From a virus, in IMG/VR virus record IMGVR_UViG_3300017755_000096, positions 1 through 25,203 of that record: 25,203 bases of DNA; one strand, given 5' to 3'. The notes beneath the pieces are model-generated. The model saw only the letters and a program-made list of their open reading frames with translations, ran no database searches and was not told the DNA's origin. How positions within the stretch are numbered: position 1 is the stretch's first letter; each line of letters begins with the position of its first letter. Positions 2,880 to 13,109 of the stretch are shown piece after piece. Position numbers and translations under genes: made by a program.

Positions 2880-3077
2880 ATGTCTAAGAAAAAGTTTGTT
2901 TGTGTAAGTCCACTATCCAAAAAAGCAAAAAATCGTTTTGCTAATGAGATGGAATTATTTCATTCTTGTGCAATAGAGACTGAAGAAAATGATATGTTTT
3001 TTCTAGCATCATTAAATAGAAAATACTTTTTTTGGGTACCAAAAAGAGGTAATGAACACTGGAGAGTCGAAAAATGA
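2880..3077 (+). CDS. Small conserved phage protein of unknown function
   Basis: A 65-residue basic protein, with Lys/Arg clusters at the start (MSKKK, KKAKNR) and the end (VPKRGNEHWRVEK) and a hydrophobic Phe/Tyr/Trp-rich centre. No membrane segment or catalytic motif is visible. Its stop overlaps the start of the next gene (ATGA at 3074-3077), so the two are translated together. It is the first gene of the series leading into the oxygenase cluster. I recall similar short proteins in cyanomyoviruses but assign no function. No clear Shine-Dalgarno sequence precedes the ATG. Confidence 0.75.
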   Translation: MSKKKFVCVSPLSKKAKNRFANEMELFHSCAIETEENDMFFLASLNRKYFFWVPKRGNEHWRVEK

Positions 3078-3787
3078 GTGATGTTGTATTGCATCTGTAT
3101 AATAAAAGAAAGAATAAACAAATTGTAGATGTTGAACCTTTTAATGCTGAGAATGATTTTGTATATGCAGCCTTCCAGGTACCTTTACTGCATGTAAACG
3201 TGCGTGACTGGCCAACCAAAAAACAGAAACTATTAAAAATTCATAAGAATTCAAAACAAAATGAAACTAAATCTGATGATACTGATGTAAGCACTGATTA
3301 TCACTTTAATGGTGATACTGGAAATTGTTATAGTAGTCAGATCTGTAAGATCTTAGAAGAAGAAATTTCTGTTCTTGAAGATATGGTTCTTCACCCGAAC
3401 GACTATAACGATATTAACCTTGAAGACTACTGTTTGGATGACGATAAAGATTTATATTTTGAAATGACTAATTCTTGGTTTGAGTCTTCTGTTGACGGTT
3501 CATTTCATGGACCACATACTCATGGACCAATAGGATATAGTTGTGTATTGTATATTAACTTTGATCAATCAGTTCATGAACAAACAATTTTTATGAATCC
3601 TTTTTTTACTTCATTTTTTGGATGCAATCCAGAATACAAAGTTGATTTTGCTTCCGAAGGATCTTTGATATGTTTTCCTTCACCAATTGTCCACTTTACA
3701 AGACCAAATTTTTCTAAAACTGATCGTTTAATATGCTCTTGGAATATGAAAGTTGTTTCTAGTAATGGTACGGAGGTAATCTCATGA
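3074..3787 (+). CDS. 2OG-Fe(II) oxygenase-like protein
   Basis: This 237-residue protein has a C-terminal half that looks like the double-stranded beta-helix oxygenase fold seen in the TIGR02466/PF13759 type. A metal-ligand region reads FHGPHTHGPIGYSCVLYI (H148, H150), followed by EGSLICFPSPIVHFTR with the distal His at H207. Arg218 then follows in DRLICSWNMK, in the place where this family reads eRisiSFN. The N-terminal 120 residues are charged and not obviously catalytic. Such enzymes use 2-oxoglutarate, O2 and Fe(II) to hydroxylate proteins, nucleic acids or small molecules; the substrate is unknown. It overlaps both neighbours by ATGA junctions. The fold call is fairly sure. Activity is less sure, because HxH replaces the usual HxD. 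Confidence 0.75.
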   Translation: MSDVVLHLYNKRKNKQIVDVEPFNAENDFVYAAFQVPLLHVNVRDWPTKKQKLLKIHKNSKQNETKSDDTDVSTDYHFNGDTGNCYSSQICKILEEEISVLEDMVLHPNDYNDINLEDYCLDDDKDLYFEMTNSWFESSVDGSFHGPHTHGPIGYSCVLYINFDQSVHEQTIFMNPFFTSFFGCNPEYKVDFASEGSLICFPSPIVHFTRPNFSKTDRLICSWNMKVVSSNGTEVIS

Positions 3788-4440
3788 GTAATTCATCTAA
3801 AGCTACAGGTGGGATCTGTTTGTTTCCTTCTCCTTTCGTTTTTTGGAGTGATGTAGATAATCATAAAGAAATTAAAAAAAATATTCTTCCTCTTGTTTTA
3901 GAAGATATCAAAACAAATGGAGATGATTATATAAAAAACAGTAACTGGGAATGTGATATTATTTCTTCGTTTCATACTTATGGTGAAAATATGGGCGACA
4001 TTAATCAAAAATTAATGGAGAATACTGGTTTAATTAGATCTATTTGGGATGCTTATAATGATATGATTTTTACTTTAAAAGGTAAAGAAGTAATTGATGA
4101 ATATGTCTATGATTCATACTGTGACTGTGTACTTTATGATATTTGGTATAACAAATATAATGTAGATCATCATCAAGATATTCATGAACACAGTCCATTT
4201 GAGTTTTCTGGAATTTATATTTTAGATGACCCTGAGTATTCTAATACATATTTCTTTGATCACTCTTCTGTTTTTAAAGTGGAAGGAAGACATACTTTTA
4301 GCCAACAAGAAGCAAAAGACTTTGATATTCGTGAAGGAAGTATAATAATATTTCCCGGTGCTTTGCCTCATCATGTACCAACAGTAAAATCTGAAAAAAT
4401 TACACTATCATTTAATTTTAAACTAAATTCTAGTCCATGA
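3784..4440 (+). CDS. 2OG-Fe(II) oxygenase-like protein (HxH type)
   Basis: A 218-residue protein with the PF13759-like pattern: QDIHEHSPFEFSGIYIL (H134, H136), then REGSIIIFPGALPHHVP with the distal His at H196 or H197, and EKITLSFNFKL at the C-terminus, matching the family's closing strand. The basic residue that would hold 2-oxoglutarate is probably K202 or K205. The N-terminus begins with GGICLFPSPFVFW, as in family members that start with a short P-S/T-P strand. Start and stop both overlap neighbours by ATGA, so this is the middle gene of three oxygenases in a row. It is related in layout to the preceding gene but too divergent to be a recent duplicate. The substrate is unknown. Confidence 0.78.
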   Translation: MSNSSKATGGICLFPSPFVFWSDVDNHKEIKKNILPLVLEDIKTNGDDYIKNSNWECDIISSFHTYGENMGDINQKLMENTGLIRSIWDAYNDMIFTLKGKEVIDEYVYDSYCDCVLYDIWYNKYNVDHHQDIHEHSPFEFSGIYILDDPEYSNTYFFDHSSVFKVEGRHTFSQQEAKDFDIREGSIIIFPGALPHHVPTVKSEKITLSFNFKLNSSP

Positions 4441-5015
4441 AACCTAAGATAATAAAAAACTTTGCCGATAAAATAGAAGTCGGTATATTAAATTGGTGGA
4501 CTATTGATAACTATAGAAAAAATTCTTACCAATATAAAGATGCCAAAATGGATCCTGATCATCCTGGAAGTAGATTTACGACTAGGATAGGTCCTGATGA
4601 AAAGTATAGCAGTTTAAATATTGAGATAGCATACCCAAAAGTTGCGTATATAATTCAAGAAAGAATTTTATGGAGATTAAAATTAAAACACTTTAAGTTT
4701 CCCCCACCATTTTATAATGGAATTGTAAATGGAATAGGAGTTAAGGAAGGGTTGATATGTGAACATATTGATCCTGTTTATTATCCAAATACAGTAACAA
4801 TGCACTGCAATATAATTACTAGAAAAGCAGATAGTGGTGGTATTACAATAATAGATGGAATTGAATATGATATTGAACCTGGTGATCTATTAGTTTACCC
4901 TGTTTCTGAGCTATTACATAGAGTAACATTAACAAAAGGAACAACAAATAGAATTTTATGGGTTTTTGGATTTTGTTTACCAAAAGATAAAGCAGAGGAT
5001 GTGTTTCAATGTTAA
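4437..5015 (+). CDS. 2OG-Fe(II) oxygenase (canonical HxD...H...R)
   Basis: A 192-residue protein with the classical iron-binding set. HID (H110, D112) lies in LICEHIDPVYYPNTVTMHCN, then comes IEPGDLLVYPVSELLHRV with the distal His H161. R172 follows 11 residues later and fits the 2-oxoglutarate-binding Arg. The strand pattern EPGDLLVYP is typical of prolyl-hydroxylase-like oxygenases. It is distinct from the two preceding HxH-type proteins, so the cluster is not simply a tandem duplication. The start overlaps the previous stop (ATGA) and the end overlaps the next gene by 7 bp. The likely role is hydroxylation of an unknown substrate in the infected cell. Confidence 0.82.
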   Translation: MKPKIIKNFADKIEVGILNWWTIDNYRKNSYQYKDAKMDPDHPGSRFTTRIGPDEKYSSLNIEIAYPKVAYIIQERILWRLKLKHFKFPPPFYNGIVNGIGVKEGLICEHIDPVYYPNTVTMHCNIITRKADSGGITIIDGIEYDIEPGDLLVYPVSELLHRVTLTKGTTNRILWVFGFCLPKDKAEDVFQC

Positions 5016-5576: not shown

Positions 5577-6266
5577 ATGAACATTTGGGAACATAACGAT
5601 CTATCTAATATCCATGTAGAAGATTTTGAAGACTCAAAAATATACTGGATGGATGATTTTTATAAAAATCCTGATTTAGTTTTTCAGTTTCTTATTGAAG
5701 AACAACCACCTCTCTGGAAACATGATGAAGAAGATGAAGAGTTAATGAAACAAACCTTTAACACAAAATACTTTGAAGATAGGAGGTGGGATGGAAAACC
5801 ATCTCCTGGTCTCGAAATTCTTCATGATAAACTTAGTGATATTTTTGGTCAAGATACTGAAGATAGAGGTAAATTAGTTACTAATCATACGATCTTTTTT
5901 GCGGATGATGAATCCCGAAAAATAAACGATTACAAAAATAATTGGTGGTGGCCTCATTGTGATAGTGGATATAATGCTATCGTCTACCTTAATGAAGGTG
6001 AAGATGGTACAGAGCTTGGAACAAATTTGTATAAATCATTAAAACCAGATTTAGAACAGGATGCTTTACCTGAACATGCGCGACCATGGGTTGATAAATC
6101 ATATTGGAAACGAATTGCTGCATTTAAATCAAAATATAATAGATTAGTTGCATTTGATGGTTTTAAATATAAGCATGGAATGTCTATAGAAAATGATAAA
6201 TGGTGTCATGAAACCAGGGTAAATCAAGTTTTATTTTTTACAAGTGATGAATACTATGAGAGTTGA
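5577..6266 (+). CDS. 2OG-Fe(II) oxygenase-like protein
   Basis: A 229-residue protein. The metal site is probably H127 and D129 in WWWPHCDSGYNAIVYLN, with the distal His H200 in GFKYKHGMSI. R214 in TRVNQVLFF is the likely 2-oxoglutarate anchor. The phrase RLVAFDG before the distal His fits the strand seen in this fold. The N-terminus is acidic (DEEDEELM near residue 52). It differs in sequence from the other oxygenases nearby. It lies 21 bp after the preceding gene and 3 bp before the next, in an apparent operon. The substrate is unknown. Confidence 0.75.
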   Translation: MNIWEHNDLSNIHVEDFEDSKIYWMDDFYKNPDLVFQFLIEEQPPLWKHDEEDEELMKQTFNTKYFEDRRWDGKPSPGLEILHDKLSDIFGQDTEDRGKLVTNHTIFFADDESRKINDYKNNWWWPHCDSGYNAIVYLNEGEDGTELGTNLYKSLKPDLEQDALPEHARPWVDKSYWKRIAAFKSKYNRLVAFDGFKYKHGMSIENDKWCHETRVNQVLFFTSDEYYES

Positions 6267-6269
6267 AAA

Positions 6270-6926
6270 ATGAGTGGGCATATTCATAGGGGAGCACAAG
6301 AACCAACTTGTGATGAAATTGTATTTGAAGATTCAAAACGTGAATTAATTTTTCCTACTTTTGTTTGGTCAACTTTTCTTGGAAAAACAGATAATAATCA
6401 AATTATCAAAGATTGTTATCACTATAGAGATGGTATAGATAGAAAAGGAGTAAAAAGATCTAATGCTGGTGGTTGGCAGAGTGATGTAAGAACTTTGACC
6501 GATCGTGTTTTTGGTGGAAGATTAGAACATATTTTTGATTTAGGTTGTAAGGTAGTACAATATGCAAATGAATGTTCTGCAGATATGGATTCCCATACAG
6601 AATATTGTTTAGATACGGCTCATTTATGGGTGAATATAAACTCAGAGTATAATTATAACGTTATTCATGCTCATCCAAAAACTGATCTTGTAGCGGTTTA
6701 TTATCCTATTCATGAAAAAGGTATGGGAGAGTTGTCTTTAGTTAGACATGATGCTTCGTTATTCTTAGACACTTTCAGGGGAATTGATGACTCAGGTTCA
6801 TTTAATGTGGAATTAGAAACAGGACTATTGGTTATGTTTCCTGCACATCTTCTTCATTACGTTTATCCAAACATGACCGGTAGAGATAGGATTTCTATAT
6901 CCTTTAACCTTATTTGTTGCAACTAA
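6270..6926 (+). CDS. 2OG-Fe(II) oxygenase-like protein (PF13759/TIGR02466 type)
   Basis: A 218-residue protein and the clearest member of the PF13759-like group in the window. An early PTFVW segment (about 29-33) is followed by W119VNINSEYNYNVIHAHPKTDLVAVYY (H133, H135). Next comes a glycine turn (GMGELSL), then ETGLLVMFPAHLLHYVYPN with H196, and DRISISFNL with R207. This order and spacing matches the family closely, including the closing SFN strand. It ends the first oxygenase series, and the fibre genes start 39 bp later behind a late promoter motif. The position directly before fibre genes is typical of T4-like cyanophages and suggests a job on virion or host-surface components, but this is inference. 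Confidence 0.85.
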   Translation: MSGHIHRGAQEPTCDEIVFEDSKRELIFPTFVWSTFLGKTDNNQIIKDCYHYRDGIDRKGVKRSNAGGWQSDVRTLTDRVFGGRLEHIFDLGCKVVQYANECSADMDSHTEYCLDTAHLWVNINSEYNYNVIHAHPKTDLVAVYYPIHEKGMGELSLVRHDASLFLDTFRGIDDSGSFNVELETGLLVMFPAHLLHYVYPNMTGRDRISISFNLICCN

Positions 6927-7517: not shown

Positions 7518-9065
7518 ATGGCTATTTTACAAGCAACAGGAATCGAGTTTAGTGATGGATCAGTTCTCACAAGTCTCTATGGAATAGTACCTCAAGATAA
7601 AAGAATGCTCTTTTATCAAGCTGCAGCTCCCACAAACTGGACAAAAGTTACTACCATAACTGATTCTTCACATCCTACAGGAGCTTCTATTGATAATTGT
7701 GCTATTAGAGTAGTAGCTGGAGTTGGCGGACTCCTGCAAGATGGTGATTCGACAGCATTCACAACTAGGTTTAGTTCATCTCCGGTACCATTTTCACCAG
7801 ATGGACCTTTTACATTTCTGGGATCTTCCCTAGCAACTACACTTGCATCTTTCGAGATGAGGAGCCATGGTCACGGAGCTGGTAGTGAGGTGTTGCTCGA
7901 GCCTGGTCCCTCTGAACCACAACCTTCTACCGTCCCCGTCACTAATTTTTACAATAGTCGAACTACACTTAATTATCAAACCCTATATCAACAACCAAAT
8001 ACTACTCGGGATAATCAACAGTATCAACAACCAAATACTACGCAGGTTACAAACTACGAACGAGTTACACAAAACAGACAACAACCCAACGACGAGCAGG
8101 CCAACCGCCGCAGTCGGGAAACTTTGGAATATCAGCAACCAAACGATTTCCAAAGACCCGCGCAGGTCTCAAGAAATAATCAAAGAAGTTTACAAAGAAA
8201 TACTAGACAACCAGCCACAACGCAGCAGAATCGTAATACACGGGTACAGAGAAGTCAACCAGCACCAGTAACAAGACAAGCAAATAGAAATCAACAAAGA
8301 TCATTTAATAGACGCAGCCCCAATAGTTTTAATAGGCGATCACCATCATCGAGTCAGAGAAGTATCAGTCGCAACTTTAGAAGAAGAGGAAGAAGAGGTG
8401 GTAGAAGAAGAAGAAGGAATAGAAGACCGGCGGCAAATCGACAAAGTAGAAGTGTAAATAGTCAAAGTCCCAGGTCAGGCAGTCGTCAAAGTCCAAACTC
8501 TGGTTCAAGTCCACAATCAAGACGAGAAAATCGAAACGCACAGCAAGATCGTCGGGTGCAGGGCCCTGCGTCTCGTCGAGCGACTGTGAATCGGCAGTCT
8601 TCACTTCGAGTTGATCGGCGTTCACCTGAAACCACTCAGGAGCTAAAACAGAGGACTGCAAATCGGCGGGAAGCAATAGCGTATCAGAACAACCGAAGGA
8701 TAAGAGCAAATGTAAACAGAAGGGAGCCATACACTAATCAAGTAACTCAACCGACGCAAGAAACGGCTAATCGCAATAGGCCAACGCCTATACGAGTAAC
8801 TGTTAACCGACAGTCTACTAAGCCATCACCTACATCAAATCAACAACCAGTTGTTAATAGCGTCACCTATGGCCAACCAATTATTATTCCTGGTGGTATA
8901 GTTCGTCGTAAAAACCAGAGTGGAAGCGATGATCCTACGCAAGCTATTGGTGGTAGTCAAGGTCATAATCACCCATTTACAGGTGGTACATTTGATGTAA
9001 CTTCTCCCAGTGGATTTGTTTTAGATGTTGCATACGTTGATGTTATTCTTTGCAGTTTTGACTGA
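7518..9065 (+). CDS. Fibre-tip type protein with long Arg/Gln/Asn-rich insertion
   Basis: A 515-residue protein, paralogous to the preceding gene at both ends: the N-terminus MAILQATGIEFSDGS and AAAPTNWTKV, the motif MRSHGHG (H117, H119), QGHNHPF (H483, H485), and the end AYVDVILCSFD. Between the two HxH motifs lie 363 residues where the paralogue has 35. Residues 181-440 of this insert contain about 61 Arg but only 2 Lys, with many Gln, Asn, Ser, Pro and Thr and a core GRRGGRRRRRNRR near 291-303. It is almost surely disordered and strongly basic. A purine-rich GGGAGATAA lies before the ATG. Likely a structural receptor-contact protein; the insert may bind acidic cell-surface polymers or nucleic acid (inference). 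The mix of AGA with CGA/CGG/CGC codons in the insert differs from flanking genes. Confidence 0.8.
   Translation: MAILQATGIEFSDGSVLTSLYGIVPQDKRMLFYQAAAPTNWTKVTTITDSSHPTGASIDNCAIRVVAGVGGLLQDGDSTAFTTRFSSSPVPFSPDGPFTFLGSSLATTLASFEMRSHGHGAGSEVLLEPGPSEPQPSTVPVTNFYNSRTTLNYQTLYQQPNTTRDNQQYQQPNTTQVTNYERVTQNRQQPNDEQANRRSRETLEYQQPNDFQRPAQVSRNNQRSLQRNTRQPATTQQNRNTRVQRSQPAPVTRQANRNQQRSFNRRSPNSFNRRSPSSSQRSISRNFRRRGRRGGRRRRRNRRPAANRQSRSVNSQSPRSGSRQSPNSGSSPQSRRENRNAQQDRRVQGPASRRATVNRQSSLRVDRRSPETTQELKQRTANRREAIAYQNNRRIRANVNRREPYTNQVTQPTQETANRNRPTPIRVTVNRQSTKPSPTSNQQPVVNSVTYGQPIIIPGGIVRRKNQSGSDDPTQAIGGSQGHNHPFTGGTFDVTSPSGFVLDVAYVDVILCSFD
7890..8913 (+). other. Low-complexity basic insertion inside fibre-tip gene
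   Basis: This is the segment coding residues about 125-465 of the long fibre protein. Recurrent short words include YQQPNTT, NRRSP, VNRQS, ANRR and RQSP. A purine-rich stretch at about 8380-8426 (AGA/GGA runs) encodes the Arg/Gly core. It interrupts what is otherwise a domain shared with the 177-residue paralogue, so it is best read as an insertion or loop expansion at the tip. Confidence 0.8.
7986..8041 (+). repeat. Direct repeat, 20 bp at 36-bp spacing
   Basis: TATCAACAACCAAATACTAC occurs at 7986-8005 and again at 8022-8041, in frame, encoding YQQPNTT twice at a 12-residue period. It suggests that the insert grew at least partly by short tandem duplication. Confidence 0.85.
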
Positions 9066-9100: not shown

Positions 9101-9463
9101 ATGTCGGCAGGAAAATGGTGTCCACTTATTAGAAAAGATTGTGTTGAACATAAGTGTGCTTTTTACACTCATGTTCAGGGACATAATCCTAATACTGGAC
9201 AACCAGTTGATGAGTGGGCATGTTCTATTCAATTTCTTCCTATGCTTTTGATTGAAAATTCTCAACAACAACGTGGAACTGGAGCTGCTGTTGAGTCATT
9301 TAGAAACGAAATGGTAAAAGCAAATAAATCAAATATAAATATTCTCGAAGCAGCTGCTAATATGTTCTCTGCGACACAAAATGTTCGTGTAGTAGAAGAA
9401 GATAAGCAAAAATTTATTCCCAATTCTATAAATAACAACACAAACCCTGGAGAAAATCAATAA
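9101..9463 (+). CDS. Conserved phage protein with four-Cys pattern
   Basis: A 120-residue protein. The first 45 residues hold GKWCPLIRKDCVEHKCAFYT and EWACSIQFLP, so the Cys are at 7, 14, 19 and 41 with nearby His at 17 and 24. This is a likely metal (Zn or Fe-S) site. The following LLIENSQQQRGTGAAVESFRNE is a conserved feature I recall from many tailed-phage proteins of unknown function. The C-terminal third is polar and probably flexible. A good Shine-Dalgarno sequence, GAGGT, lies just upstream (about 9091). The stop touches the start of the next gene (TAATG), so the two are probably made together. Function unknown. Confidence 0.8.
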   Translation: MSAGKWCPLIRKDCVEHKCAFYTHVQGHNPNTGQPVDEWACSIQFLPMLLIENSQQQRGTGAAVESFRNEMVKANKSNINILEAAANMFSATQNVRVVEEDKQKFIPNSINNNTNPGENQ

Positions 9464-10908
9464 TGAAAGTAACTGTAGTTCCTCCTGATAGAATAATTAT
9501 TGTTGATAATAAAGCACTTCACCTCAAGGATGAGGATTGGAATTTTGATGATAGCCATATTCATGCTATTCAATGGAATGGAAATCAGGGTGAGATTGAG
9601 TGGATAACTAATGATCCTAACGAAAAATTAGATACCATTGATATTGCTCAACCATATATTGATTTTTTTCTTTCTGAGATTCCAAAAGTTGAAAAATTTA
9701 GACTTGAGCGTGAAGAGAGAGAACGTCAAGAACAACAATCAGCAATTGATCAACAAGTAGAAGCAGATAGATACAAGCAAGATCTAATTATAAAAATTAA
9801 AGAGACAGCAGAAGAAAACAAACGACTTTCTTTAAAAGCTTTTAACAAAGAGTTGGAAAAAGATCGTTTAAAAAATGAACTTGCAAACAAAGAAATAGAA
9901 CTTCAGCATGAGAGAAAACTTAAAGAACAAGAATTAGAAAAAATAAAAATAAAAACTGAAATTCAGATAGCTGAAGAAAAATCTCTTTCTGAAATTAATT
10001 TGCAAAAATTACGCCTCGAAAAAGAGGATAAACTGTTTAATACTAAAAGAGAAGAATTAAACCAAGCATTTAAGTCTATGGCTTCGGGATTGGCTTCTAA
10101 AGTTGAAACTCTAAATCAATATGCTGCGGAAGAAAGAGAATTGTTAGACCAAGAACGTGAGGACTATCTAAAGAAGAAGAAAGTAACTGAAAAACAGTTA
10201 AATGCACAACTAATACAAGCCGAAGTTTCGGCTGTCGAATTAGAAAAAACTAGAGAAGAGATACAGCAGGAATTTGAAATACAAGTTCAAAATACTATTA
10301 ATGATAGAGAAATAGACAGAATAAAACATGAAACTTTGATGCAAGCCCTAGAACTTGAACGAGTAAAATTACAAAATGCTATAGAAGAAACGCAGGCTGA
10401 GAAAGCTGTTCGTCTAAAAGAACTTGATAAAGAGCAGAAAGATATATCTAATATAGAAACCTCTTTAGACTTAGATCGTGAAAATATTAAGTTAGAAAGA
10501 GATCTTTTAGAAAAGGAAAGAGAAGAATTTAATAAACTAATTCAAATTGAAAAGGATAATGCTAATATGGCTCTTTATGAAGAAAGAGCACGTATTGAAG
10601 CTGAAAGGTTGGTAGATCAAAAAATTAGAGATGAAGTTGAGCGAGATGCTAGAGATATAGCAACCACCAAAGTTAGTGAGATTGCAGAAAACTTTGATCC
10701 TCTGCTACTTTTTGATCAAATTGCTAGTAATCCTGATGTTGACCTTAAGAATTTCCCAGTCGCAGAAATTCTTAGTTGGTTCTCACAACTACAGAGAATA
10801 AAAGATTTCTGTATTAAGTATGACTTAACTTATCAGCAAGTACAAAGTAGTCCTGAATTGAAAGAAATGTGTGATGAATATATTAAACAGGCCAGACATG
10901 ATGATTAA
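9463..10908 (+). CDS. Long coiled-coil protein, tail-region hypothetical
   Basis: A 481-residue protein. Residues 1-65 form a small domain (MKVTVVPPDRIIIVDNKAL, then HIHAIQWNGNQGEIEW) of a type I recall near tail fibre genes in many phages. From about 75 to 415 it is a highly charged Glu/Lys/Arg helix with heptad-like Leu/Ile spacing, certainly a long coiled coil. The end (from about residue 420) is a small globular part with FDPLLLFDQIASNPDVDLKN. It could be a rod, scaffold or fibre-assembly factor. The start overlaps the preceding stop by one base. No enzymatic motif is seen. Placement between fibre genes and oxygenases suggests a role in fibre assembly (inference). Confidence 0.75.
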   Translation: MKVTVVPPDRIIIVDNKALHLKDEDWNFDDSHIHAIQWNGNQGEIEWITNDPNEKLDTIDIAQPYIDFFLSEIPKVEKFRLEREERERQEQQSAIDQQVEADRYKQDLIIKIKETAEENKRLSLKAFNKELEKDRLKNELANKEIELQHERKLKEQELEKIKIKTEIQIAEEKSLSEINLQKLRLEKEDKLFNTKREELNQAFKSMASGLASKVETLNQYAAEERELLDQEREDYLKKKKVTEKQLNAQLIQAEVSAVELEKTREEIQQEFEIQVQNTINDREIDRIKHETLMQALELERVKLQNAIEETQAEKAVRLKELDKEQKDISNIETSLDLDRENIKLERDLLEKEREEFNKLIQIEKDNANMALYEERARIEAERLVDQKIRDEVERDARDIATTKVSEIAENFDPLLLFDQIASNPDVDLKNFPVAEILSWFSQLQRIKDFCIKYDLTYQQVQSSPELKEMCDEYIKQARHDD

Positions 10909-10936: not shown

Positions 10937-12352
10937 GTGAATGATCAACTTATTAAAAATAATTTTTTAATTCTTAAAAATATTATAGATCGAGATTTTG
11001 CAATTGATTTAGGATCAGAATTTAAAAACGATTGTGAAGACGCTGATTTTGCTGGGGACGGTCAAGCAAGAAACTCACATTCGGTTTATAATTATAAAAG
11101 AGCATTAGAATTGCTTTGTGAACTTAATAGTGAGGTATCAAATGCAATAGGAGAACCTGTACTACCAACATATACTTATGGTAGAATATATAAGAACGGA
11201 TCTACGTTAGAAAAACATACAGACCGTCCTGCATGTGAAATATCATTAACTCTTCATCTTGATGGAGATGAACCTTGGCCAATATGGGTCGAGAATGTTC
11301 ATGGAAAAAGTAATTGTATTTACTTAGAACCAGGTGATGCAATGCTTTATCTTGGTTGTGTTGCACCACACTGGAGAGATGAATTTGAAGGTGAGTGGTA
11401 TTCTCAATTCTTTTTACATTATGTGAGAAGTAATGGTCCTTGTAGAGAGTGTTACTTTGATAAAGTAAAGACGAAAAATGAAGATATAATCAGAGATGCT
11501 TTATATGATGAAGTTAAGAATGATAAAGAAATTCCCCGTCAACTTATTAACAAATATGTAAGTGGACTAGTATTAAATGAAAATGATTTAGATAATAGCA
11601 ATTTTAATAGTATTACCGCCCTCAATTCTGAAACTGAAATGTCCAACAACAGCATACTTGATATTCTAGAACAAAAAAGAAACAAATTAAAAAGTAAAAA
11701 AGAATCTCCCGTTATAGAAAAGCAGATAGACGTAGAATCTGCTTTTATTCGTTTTGACGATAAGAATGTCTCTAACAATTCTGAGTTCCCTGCTTTAGAT
11801 ACTTTTATTGAAGTATATAAAGGAGGAGTTTCTGATAAACTTTGTGATAGTATTCTAAATGAATATGTTACTCAAGATTTGTGGAACCACGCGATGACCG
11901 CTGGTGGACGAGATGAACAGGCAAGAAATTGTGATGTTATTGGCATTTCAGAAAGATGTATATTAGATCAAAATCATGATTATCGTATGAAATTAGATAG
12001 TCAACTTTATGACTGTGTTCATAAAGTTTTAGACATGTATGAGGATAAGCATGGTGGAGATCAAGGTTTGTCTATTGAAAAAGATACTGGATATGAGTTG
12101 CTTAGATATAAAGAAGGCCAATTCTATATTCAACATACTGATCATTTTGCAGAGCAACCTAGGATCCTCTCTTGTACTATTTGTTTAAATGATGATTATG
12201 AAGGTGGAGAATTTGCTTTTTTTGATAGAAAAATAAAGATGAAATTGAATAAAGGTGATATACTAATGTTCCCTTCTGGTTTCATGTATCCCCATGAAGT
12301 AATGCCTGTTATTAAAGGAAATCGATATAATATAATCACTTGGTTAGTATAA
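10937..12352 (+). CDS. Two-domain 2OG-Fe(II) oxygenase
   Basis: A 471-residue protein starting at GTG; the nearby ATG at 10941 is in another frame, and TTGGAG lies 10 bp before the GTG. It has two oxygenase modules. Module 1 (about 1-170) has HTD (H94, D96) in TLEKHTDRPACEISLTLHL, then LEPGDAMLYLGCVAPHWRDE with H145; its 2-oxoglutarate Arg is not clear. Module 2 (about 285-471) has HTD (H400, D402) in GQFYIQHTDHF, then NKGDILMFPSGFMYPHEV with H453 and R463, a complete canonical prolyl-4-hydroxylase-like set. A polar linker (about 175-280) joins them. Module 2 should be active; module 1 may be active or only substrate-binding. The following oxygenase starts 4 bp after this stop. Confidence 0.85.
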   Translation: MNDQLIKNNFLILKNIIDRDFAIDLGSEFKNDCEDADFAGDGQARNSHSVYNYKRALELLCELNSEVSNAIGEPVLPTYTYGRIYKNGSTLEKHTDRPACEISLTLHLDGDEPWPIWVENVHGKSNCIYLEPGDAMLYLGCVAPHWRDEFEGEWYSQFFLHYVRSNGPCRECYFDKVKTKNEDIIRDALYDEVKNDKEIPRQLINKYVSGLVLNENDLDNSNFNSITALNSETEMSNNSILDILEQKRNKLKSKKESPVIEKQIDVESAFIRFDDKNVSNNSEFPALDTFIEVYKGGVSDKLCDSILNEYVTQDLWNHAMTAGGRDEQARNCDVIGISERCILDQNHDYRMKLDSQLYDCVHKVLDMYEDKHGGDQGLSIEKDTGYELLRYKEGQFYIQHTDHFAEQPRILSCTICLNDDYEGGEFAFFDRKIKMKLNKGDILMFPSGFMYPHEVMPVIKGNRYNIITWLV

Positions 12353-12356
12353 TTCA

Positions 12357-13109
12357 ATGCAACAAGAATATAATCAATTTATTGGAATTTATAAAAATGT
12401 ATTTAACAAATCTTACTGTGATAAGTTAATTCATATATTTAATGATAGTGAATGTAATGAAGATATTAAAGTTGGTGAATCCGCAAGTGCTTATGGTGGA
12501 TCTTTACACAGAGATGATTATGGACTTTCTTTAAATGACTACCCAGATTTAAAGTGGTATAATGATATTAATGATAAAGTTGTTGAGTGTTTAGATTTAT
12601 ATAAAATAGAGTATTTTGGATTAGAAAATTGTGACATTGGTTATTATACAAATCCATATGTAAAGATGCAAAAAACTTACCCGCGAGGTGGGTATCATAT
12701 ATGGCATTCTGAAGTAGACTCTATTGAGATGGTTCATAGAGTTCTTGCATGGATGTTATACTTAAATGATATTCCAGAAGGTGAAGGTGAAACTGAATTT
12801 TTATTTCAAGGATTAAGATTACAACCAGAACAGGGAACGCTTCTTATTTGGCCAGCTCACTTTACACATATGCACAGAGGAAATCCCGTTTATACCACAG
12901 AAAAATATATCGCAACTGGATGGATTGAATATGAGGACATAATAACAAATAGTCCCAATTCACCTATGATATATGATAAGGACAGTTGTAGATATAAACA
13001 TGATGAAAATGATGATGATTGTGGACAAGATGATGATGATCATGATATACTTCAAGAAACATTCAAGAAACAAAAACAACAGTACAAACGACTTTCCGAT
13101 TTAATTTAA
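12357..13109 (+). CDS. 2OG-Fe(II) oxygenase-like protein with acidic tail
   Basis: A 250-residue protein. The iron site appears as HSE (H117, E119) in GGYHIWHSEVDS, with Glu in place of the usual Asp. Next come AWMLYLNDIPEGEGETEF and PEQGTLLIWPAHFTHMHRG with the distal His H171 or H173, and K183 as a possible 2-oxoglutarate anchor. The layout fits the 2OG-Fe(II) superfamily well. After residue 200 there is a charged tail with an Asp cluster (about 218-230) and a KQKQQYKR end not seen in the other oxygenases here. It starts 4 bp after the two-domain oxygenase and ends 2 bp before the next gene. HxE variants exist in the superfamily, but activity is less certain. Confidence 0.78.
   Translation: MQQEYNQFIGIYKNVFNKSYCDKLIHIFNDSECNEDIKVGESASAYGGSLHRDDYGLSLNDYPDLKWYNDINDKVVECLDLYKIEYFGLENCDIGYYTNPYVKMQKTYPRGGYHIWHSEVDSIEMVHRVLAWMLYLNDIPEGEGETEFLFQGLRLQPEQGTLLIWPAHFTHMHRGNPVYTTEKYIATGWIEYEDIITNSPNSPMIYDKDSCRYKHDENDDDCGQDDDDHDILQETFKKQKQQYKRLSDLI

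Follow-up and report, generated by a model that had tools for sequence, protein, structure and literature searches.

An arginine-rich, lysine-poor insert in the collar of a phage tail-tip protein, proposed to form an out-and-back beta needle

In T4 gp37, D11 (residues 882-1009) is inserted in the collar D10. Two stem arms, residues 882-931 and 960-1009, flank a 28-residue tip (932-959) that has been implicated in LPS and OmpC binding (PMC6957217). Fibres with repeated HxH motifs also occur in marine phages, as in alterophage R22Y (PMC11705849). Among cultured phages, Synechococcus phage S-SCSM1 (Kyanoviridae, Zhoulongquanvirus) has the nearest relatives of the tip genes described here; for this phage 45 virion proteins were detected by mass spectrometry, and its 24 oxygenases are described as not specifically investigated in function (PMC9602691).

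The DNA analysed here (the window), a virus record of 25.2 kb, has a helicase region that matches T4-like cyanophages. It contains a pair of adjacent tip genes, one short and one long, and both are found in S-SCSM1 in the same order. The coordinates of the pair, of the parts of the long protein and of the surrounding genes are collected in Table 1. No paper on arginine-rich tail fibres came up in a search of the literature.

Table 1. Features of the tip locus, in window coordinates.
Feature	Position	Strand	Evidence or remark
2OG-Fe(II) oxygenase-like, upstream	3074..3787	+	PF13759, 26.0 bits (cut-off 27); phrog_81
2OG-Fe(II) oxygenase, upstream	3784..4440	+	PF13759, 42.5 bits
2OG-like, upstream	4437..5015	+	related to S-SCSM1 cassette ORF annotated 2OG oxygenase; Pfam weak (WelO5, E = 0.011)
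2OG-like, upstream	5577..6266	+	related to S-SCSM1 cassette ORF annotated 2OG oxygenase; phrog_1644; weak DUF6445
2OG-Fe(II) oxygenase, upstream	6270..6926	+	PF13759, 56.5 bits
Short tip paralogue, 177 aa	6966..7499	+	HxH at 108-110 and 146-148; 35-residue spacer
Long tip protein, 515 aa	7518..9065	+	homologues: S-SCSM1 (421 aa), ~30 IMG/VR proteins
Collar N-terminal part, residues 1-119	7518..7874	+	aligns to short paralogue; ends in first HxH (7866-7874)
Outgoing insert arm, residues 120-285	7875..8372	+	hexad periodicity, proline parity
Predicted outgoing beta strand, residues 136-198	7923..8111	+	AlphaFold2; pLDDT 74-82 over 151-190
Central R/G-rich segment, residues 286-305, contains RRRGRRGGRRRRRN	8373..8432	+	proposed distal turn
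Returning insert arm, residues 306-482	8433..8963	+	hexads, proline parity; length covaries with outgoing arm
Predicted returning beta strand, residues 394-456	8697..8885	+	AlphaFold2; pLDDT 71-81 over 401-440
Collar C-terminal part, residues 483-515	8964..9062	+	family alignments; starts with second HxH (8964-8972)
120-aa Cys-rich protein (CPLIRKDCVEHKC)	9101..9463	+	homologues directly downstream of tip pair in L004, L006, S-SCSM1
481-aa acidic Lys/Glu-rich protein, probably coiled-coil	9463..10908	+	syntenic homologues in L004, L006
PHROG 'ferrochelatase' N-terminal half and 2OG-Fe(II) oxygenase C-terminal domain	10937..12352	+	PF13640, 63.7 bits; phrog_2954
2OG-Fe(II) oxygenase, downstream	12357..13109	+	PF13640, 41.6 bits

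A long insert between the HxH motifs of a tail-tip protein

In the 515-aa protein the two motifs lie at residues 117-119 (HGH) and 483-485 (HNH), which leaves 363 residues between them vs. 35 in the short paralogue. The two proteins align with E = 2e-13 and are 40% identical across the first 132 residues. Together with a check of the open reading frames, this confirms the difference in spacer length between homologous proteins that the first-pass annotation had pointed out. The region marked there, positions 7887-8913, corresponds to residues 124-465 of the long protein, and its count for residues 181-440, 61 Arg against 2 Lys, was reproduced. Base composition was rejected as the source of the Arg surplus: the window genes other than the tip encode 195 Lys and 125 Arg, so the Arg:Lys ratio of the insert is not a genome-wide property. 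Two further open reading frames, 7867-8271 (+) and 8377-8730 (-), overlap the long tip gene.

An artefact of assembly, absent from relatives, had also been raised as a possible origin of the insert. This was rejected, because the tip region is at least 99.9% nucleotide-identical in contigs from other metagenome assemblies (L001, L002, L003 and L005), with the gene intact in L001, L002 and L003, and because the cultured S-SCSM1 carries a homologue. Two other contigs (L004 and L006) have flanks ~80% nucleotide-identical to the window and carry the insert in diverged form. A profile scan of IMG/VR returned ~30 distinct long tip proteins with the insert at the same place, as in S-SCSM1; the insert is thus real and common to relatives, and its length varies. 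Apart from a 547-aa, Arg-poor exception (L152, with an Arg fraction of 0.02), the inserts form a shorter class of 275-297 residues (12 members having exactly 284) and a longer one of 353-381 residues, and contain 11-28% Arg but 0-3% Lys. Gly makes up ~5% of the inserts and His 0.1%. Where a short tip adjoins a long one, its spacer stays at 34-36 residues. By a quick tree, all long forms could go back to one origin.

Neither Pfam nor PHROGs has a family matching the 515-aa protein, insert included. A profile of the short form matches the PDB tail fibres 9qgo (E = 1.5e-10) and 9nxk (E = 1.5e-5), and one of the long form matches chain 9qgo_A (E = 4.5e-5), while T4 gp37 and gp12 chains were not reached at E up to 1. 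The collar and HxH region of both tail fibres align with ours, but the aligned region is without a long Arg-rich insert, and in 9qgo tens of residues separate the HxH motifs. The counterpart in a cultured phage is ORF245 of S-SCSM1, annotated as 'short tail fiber protein', which shares the gene order, the position of the insert and the flanking 2OG oxygenase genes, and has a central RRRGGRRRR and no Lys in its insert. It is ~36% identical to the window protein and differs in having a 284-residue insert with more regular hexads.

Two neighbouring genes immediately downstream, encoding the 120-aa Cys-rich and the 481-aa proteins, are possible tip partners or chaperones. In other phage lineages (many loci within L041-L086 and L102-L148), two or three short tip genes stand in tandem ahead of one 2OG-like gene, and the spacer is often longer in the first copy (44-59 residues) than in the second (36-40).

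Periodicity, arm symmetry and predicted structure

The inserts are strongly periodic. Across 30 of them, autocorrelation at lags 6, 12 and 18 gives z = 38, 33 and 31, with multiples of six strongest and most odd lags depleted; within the window clade, z = 9.2 at lag 6 and 11.7 at lag 18. Centred on proline, the family consensus is [YF]-R-[QV]-P-x-[NST]. All 26 counted prolines of the window insert occupy even positions (p = 3e-8), and family-wide 904/991 prolines (91%) lie on one face of their own arm, compared with 60% (s.d. 0.8%) in shuffled sequences. Aromatic residues lie on the opposite face in 685/771 cases (89%; shuffled 51%). Duplication of six-residue units could partly produce such even spacing, which weighs against reading it as structural. 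However, proline spacings of 6n and 6n+2 both preserve parity, and parity holds across divergent sequences, so hexad duplication alone is not a full explanation. Alternation of this kind is the signature of an extended, two-faced beta strand and, as far as sequence can tell, argues strongly against a disordered insert.

The insert also has a centre. In most sequences an R/G-rich segment, RRRGGRRRR in many members, sits at ~0.48 of its length. The outgoing and returning arms on either side have strongly correlated lengths (r = 0.985; r = 0.90 for independent contrasts on a collar tree), with arm boundaries taken from a MAFFT alignment of this low-complexity region. For the 284-residue class MAFFT, which takes no account of hairpins, puts a deletion of ~36 residues in the outgoing arm and one of ~39 in the returning arm.

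AlphaFold2 predicts two 63-residue strands in the window protein (Table 1), related by i+j = 592, and the axis residue, 296, falls inside the R/G centre. For a relative (L088) the predicted strands are 126-173/314-361 and 191-197/290-296, all with i+j = 487 and centred on the R/G motif. The matching strand lengths and registers suggest that the two arms would pair. Confidence is mostly 70-82 (pLDDT) in the strands of the window protein and mostly <50 in the remainder of that model. The low mean pLDDT of the two models (43.8 and 49.0) and values <50 mid-arm in both arms speak against an ordered needle. Because the models are of monomers and were built on overlapping alignments, they support rather than prove arm pairing. 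When proline matching was scored for each i+j, no single sharp optimum of register emerged, since both arms are periodic; length covariation and parity were used instead. A Foldseek search of the low-confidence models against the PDB gave nothing useful (best E of 9.7 for one, no hit for the other), and against BFVD the sole match was S-SCSM1's own protein.

The first-pass annotation had proposed a disordered basic arm at the tip that could grip acidic polysaccharide, lipopolysaccharide or nucleic acid, which amounts to a flexible polycation acting through its charge. A net charge of ~+48 in the window protein and pLDDT <50 over residues 194-397 fit that description. Against it stand the alternation of Pro and aromatic faces, the hexads, the two length classes, the coupled arms and the two AlphaFold2 models: a disordered Arg-rich arm would show no periodic order or length constraint, and the insert shows both. 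The term 'disordered arm' is probably wrong, and we regard a disordered polycation as unlikely.

We instead favour, with a probability of roughly 0.68, an ordered out-and-back beta needle set within the gp12/gp37-type collar of a trimeric tail-tip adhesin. The two collar parts listed in Table 1 would form its base, and the needle would emerge between two presumed metal-binding HxH motifs. Each chain would run outward as an extended strand of degenerate hexads, turn at the central RRGGRRRR, which would mark the distal pole, and return beside itself to the collar; three chains would then build a six-stranded beta needle. Pro, Arg and Asn/Ser/Thr would tend to one face, with aromatics, Val and Gln on the other, and the basic distal pole would be the likeliest contact with the receptor. 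The trimer, the metal binding, the distal location and the receptor role are modelled on T4 gp37, and the placement at the tip already proposed by the first-pass annotation is plausible.

Like D10/D11 of T4 gp37, where the receptor is contacted at the distal end (PMC6957217), the long tip protein has a long collar insert with two equal arms, which are predicted to pair and would lead out to a distal tip and back. The arms are about three times longer, ~130-195 residues compared with ~50 in T4, and they consist of Arg/Pro/Asn/Gln hexads instead of an HxH/iron ladder, the sole pair of HxH motifs being at the base; with 0.1% His, the insert has no gp37-type iron ladder. The scan also returned long fibres from related loci (L156-L162) whose HxH motifs form two groups on either side of a tip-like stretch, a layout that would suit out-and-back arms. 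However, L157, L159, L161 and L162 carry metal ladders at 13-residue steps rather than Arg/Pro hexads, and around those of the L156-L162 fibres that were scanned the oxygenase cassette is absent. In L156, L157, L159, L161 and L162, which are marine phage fibres with a gp37-like metal ladder, the tip-like stretch is ~50 residues long.

Arginine without lysine

The 12 inserts of exactly 284 residues can be compared column by column. They are under purifying selection, with a median dN/dS of 0.31, and contain 70 columns that are all Arg and 21 that are all Pro. A further 19 columns mix Arg with other residues, and Lys appears in none of them. Among 373 pairwise Arg replacements, none is to Lys; most are to Asn, Gln, Ala or Val. 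Elsewhere in these loci, 49% of the Arg replacements in other genes are to Lys. Pairwise replacements are non-independent, but the contrast with the neighbouring genes is large. Codon usage makes it sharper still, as 73% of the Arg codons in these inserts are AGA, a single transition from the Lys codon AAA.

Since Arg gives way to Asn and Gln and never to Lys, selection is unlikely to act on charge alone. This further disfavours a disordered polycation, in which uncharged Asn and Gln would not be expected to stand in for Arg while Lys never does. The earlier suggestion of a basic arm gripping an acidic partner therefore survives in part: its position at the tip gains support from the analogy with T4 gp37, and grip by charge is weakened. 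A planar, hydrogen-bonding side chain, suited to packing in a beta array or to specific glycan contact, fits the Arg pattern better. In the ordered needle, Arg would work mainly through such planar, multi-hydrogen-bond chemistry, both in packing and in binding glycans at the surface, hence the exclusion of Lys.

A rapidly expanding low-complexity repeat that has little function and that a permissive collar loop tolerates would also give short, degenerate repeats like those observed. It would likewise suit the window clade, in which conservation is lower in the arms than in the collar (for example, 32/80 vs. 66/117 residues identical to L029). It does not fit the dN/dS of ~0.31, the exact 284-residue length of 12 members, the 70 invariant Arg columns, or the exclusion of Lys despite the one-step change from AGA to AAA. 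We consider such a repeat very improbable.

2OG-Fe(II) oxygenase-like genes around the tip pair

The window holds seven 2OG genes, of which four score above Pfam cut-offs, one falls 1 bit below and two are assigned through their relation to S-SCSM1 ORFs (Table 1). This neighbourhood, which the first-pass annotation had not mentioned, accompanies the long tip. All 29 long-tip records with full upstream sequence, some of which are the same contig twice or near-identical and so not independent observations, carry 4-6 upstream genes that resemble 2OG-Fe(II) oxygenases. On the downstream side, long-tip loci have 1-3 2OG-like genes. Loci with short tips only have none upstream in 37/39 cases and at most one downstream in 56/58. 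Three loci scored as short-only with several upstream 2OG genes (L033, L040 and L058) are long-tip loci cut by the end of the contig.

Two PHROG labels in these cassettes deserve comment. The 'ferrochelatase' label of phrog_2954 (window 10937-12352; the L041 ORF at 8049) is probably wrong: the domain looks 2OG-like, judging by an HKD...PHW pattern in relatives (e.g. the L004 homologue) and by the second 2OG domain of the window gene. The label 'minor coat protein' of phrog_1644 (window 5577-6266; L007 10023-10754) may mislead as to a structural role, as its matches include an S-SCSM1 ORF annotated as a 2OG oxygenase; its DUF6445 match is weak.

Collagen and collagen-like proteins are repetitive, Pro-containing fibres associated with 2OG oxygenases, the prolyl hydroxylases. 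The insert differs from them in having no Gly-X-Y triplets, a six-residue repeat and little Gly, and its two-residue alternation indicates a beta strand rather than a polyproline triple helix. By analogy with collagen prolyl hydroxylation, Pro, Arg, Asn or aromatic residues of the ordered needle could be hydroxylated by the surrounding 2OG-Fe(II) oxygenases, the tip maturing only once modified. Such hydroxylation would extend, and not contradict, the needle reading. The cassette upstream of every complete long-tip record and its near absence from short-only loci point towards it, as do hexads with invariant Pro and Arg columns and the description of S-SCSM1 oxygenase function as not specifically investigated (PMC9602691). 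On the other side, the long form may have arisen once, so that the association of tip and cassette could be inherited synteny, and two of the seven genes in the window owe their 2OG assignment to a relation with annotated S-SCSM1 ORFs. Most other 2OG genes of S-SCSM1, in the ~125 kb checked, lie among replication genes, far from the tail genes; a general placement of 2OG genes beside tail genes in that phage was accordingly rejected. Because of the possible single origin and these distant oxygenases, we put hydroxylation of the needle forward tentatively, as possible. One S-SCSM1 2OG oxygenase gene lies inside the baseplate cluster (ORF15/ORF16; L165 8137-21061), directly after a strikingly large, 12.4-kb baseplate wedge subunit gene.

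Virion data from S-SCSM1 are compatible with either state of the long tip. GenBank marks the short tip, SSCSM1_244, as 'virion protein', and the long homologue has no such mark, a point against the adhesin reading. From the long protein, however, trypsin would yield only seven peptides in the range of 7-35 residues, covering 20% of it, and modified peptides would escape a standard search, so the missing mark says little.

Strict exclusion of Lys beside abundant Arg makes the insert a clean natural case in which to study what Arg, unlike Lys, can do in an ordered beta array. An Arg-specific beta needle seems to be a new variant of the gp37-type tip, with which a phage would make its host-contacting part in a manner that appears undescribed. 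The fixed 2OG neighbourhood offers a concrete candidate substrate for a gene family that is abundant in cyanophages (PMC9602691). Literature searches found no proposal that oxygenases modify tail fibres. A full adhesin maturation system, in which about seven 2OG-Fe(II) oxygenases would form a dedicated cassette for hydroxylating a long needle of Arg/Pro/Asn hexads, is suggested by gene neighbourhood, and for now we think it doubtful. If true, it would provide a structural-protein substrate for part of the unexplained expansion of cyanophage oxygenases, and the tip would stand for a new class of receptor-binding needles, built by post-translational modification.
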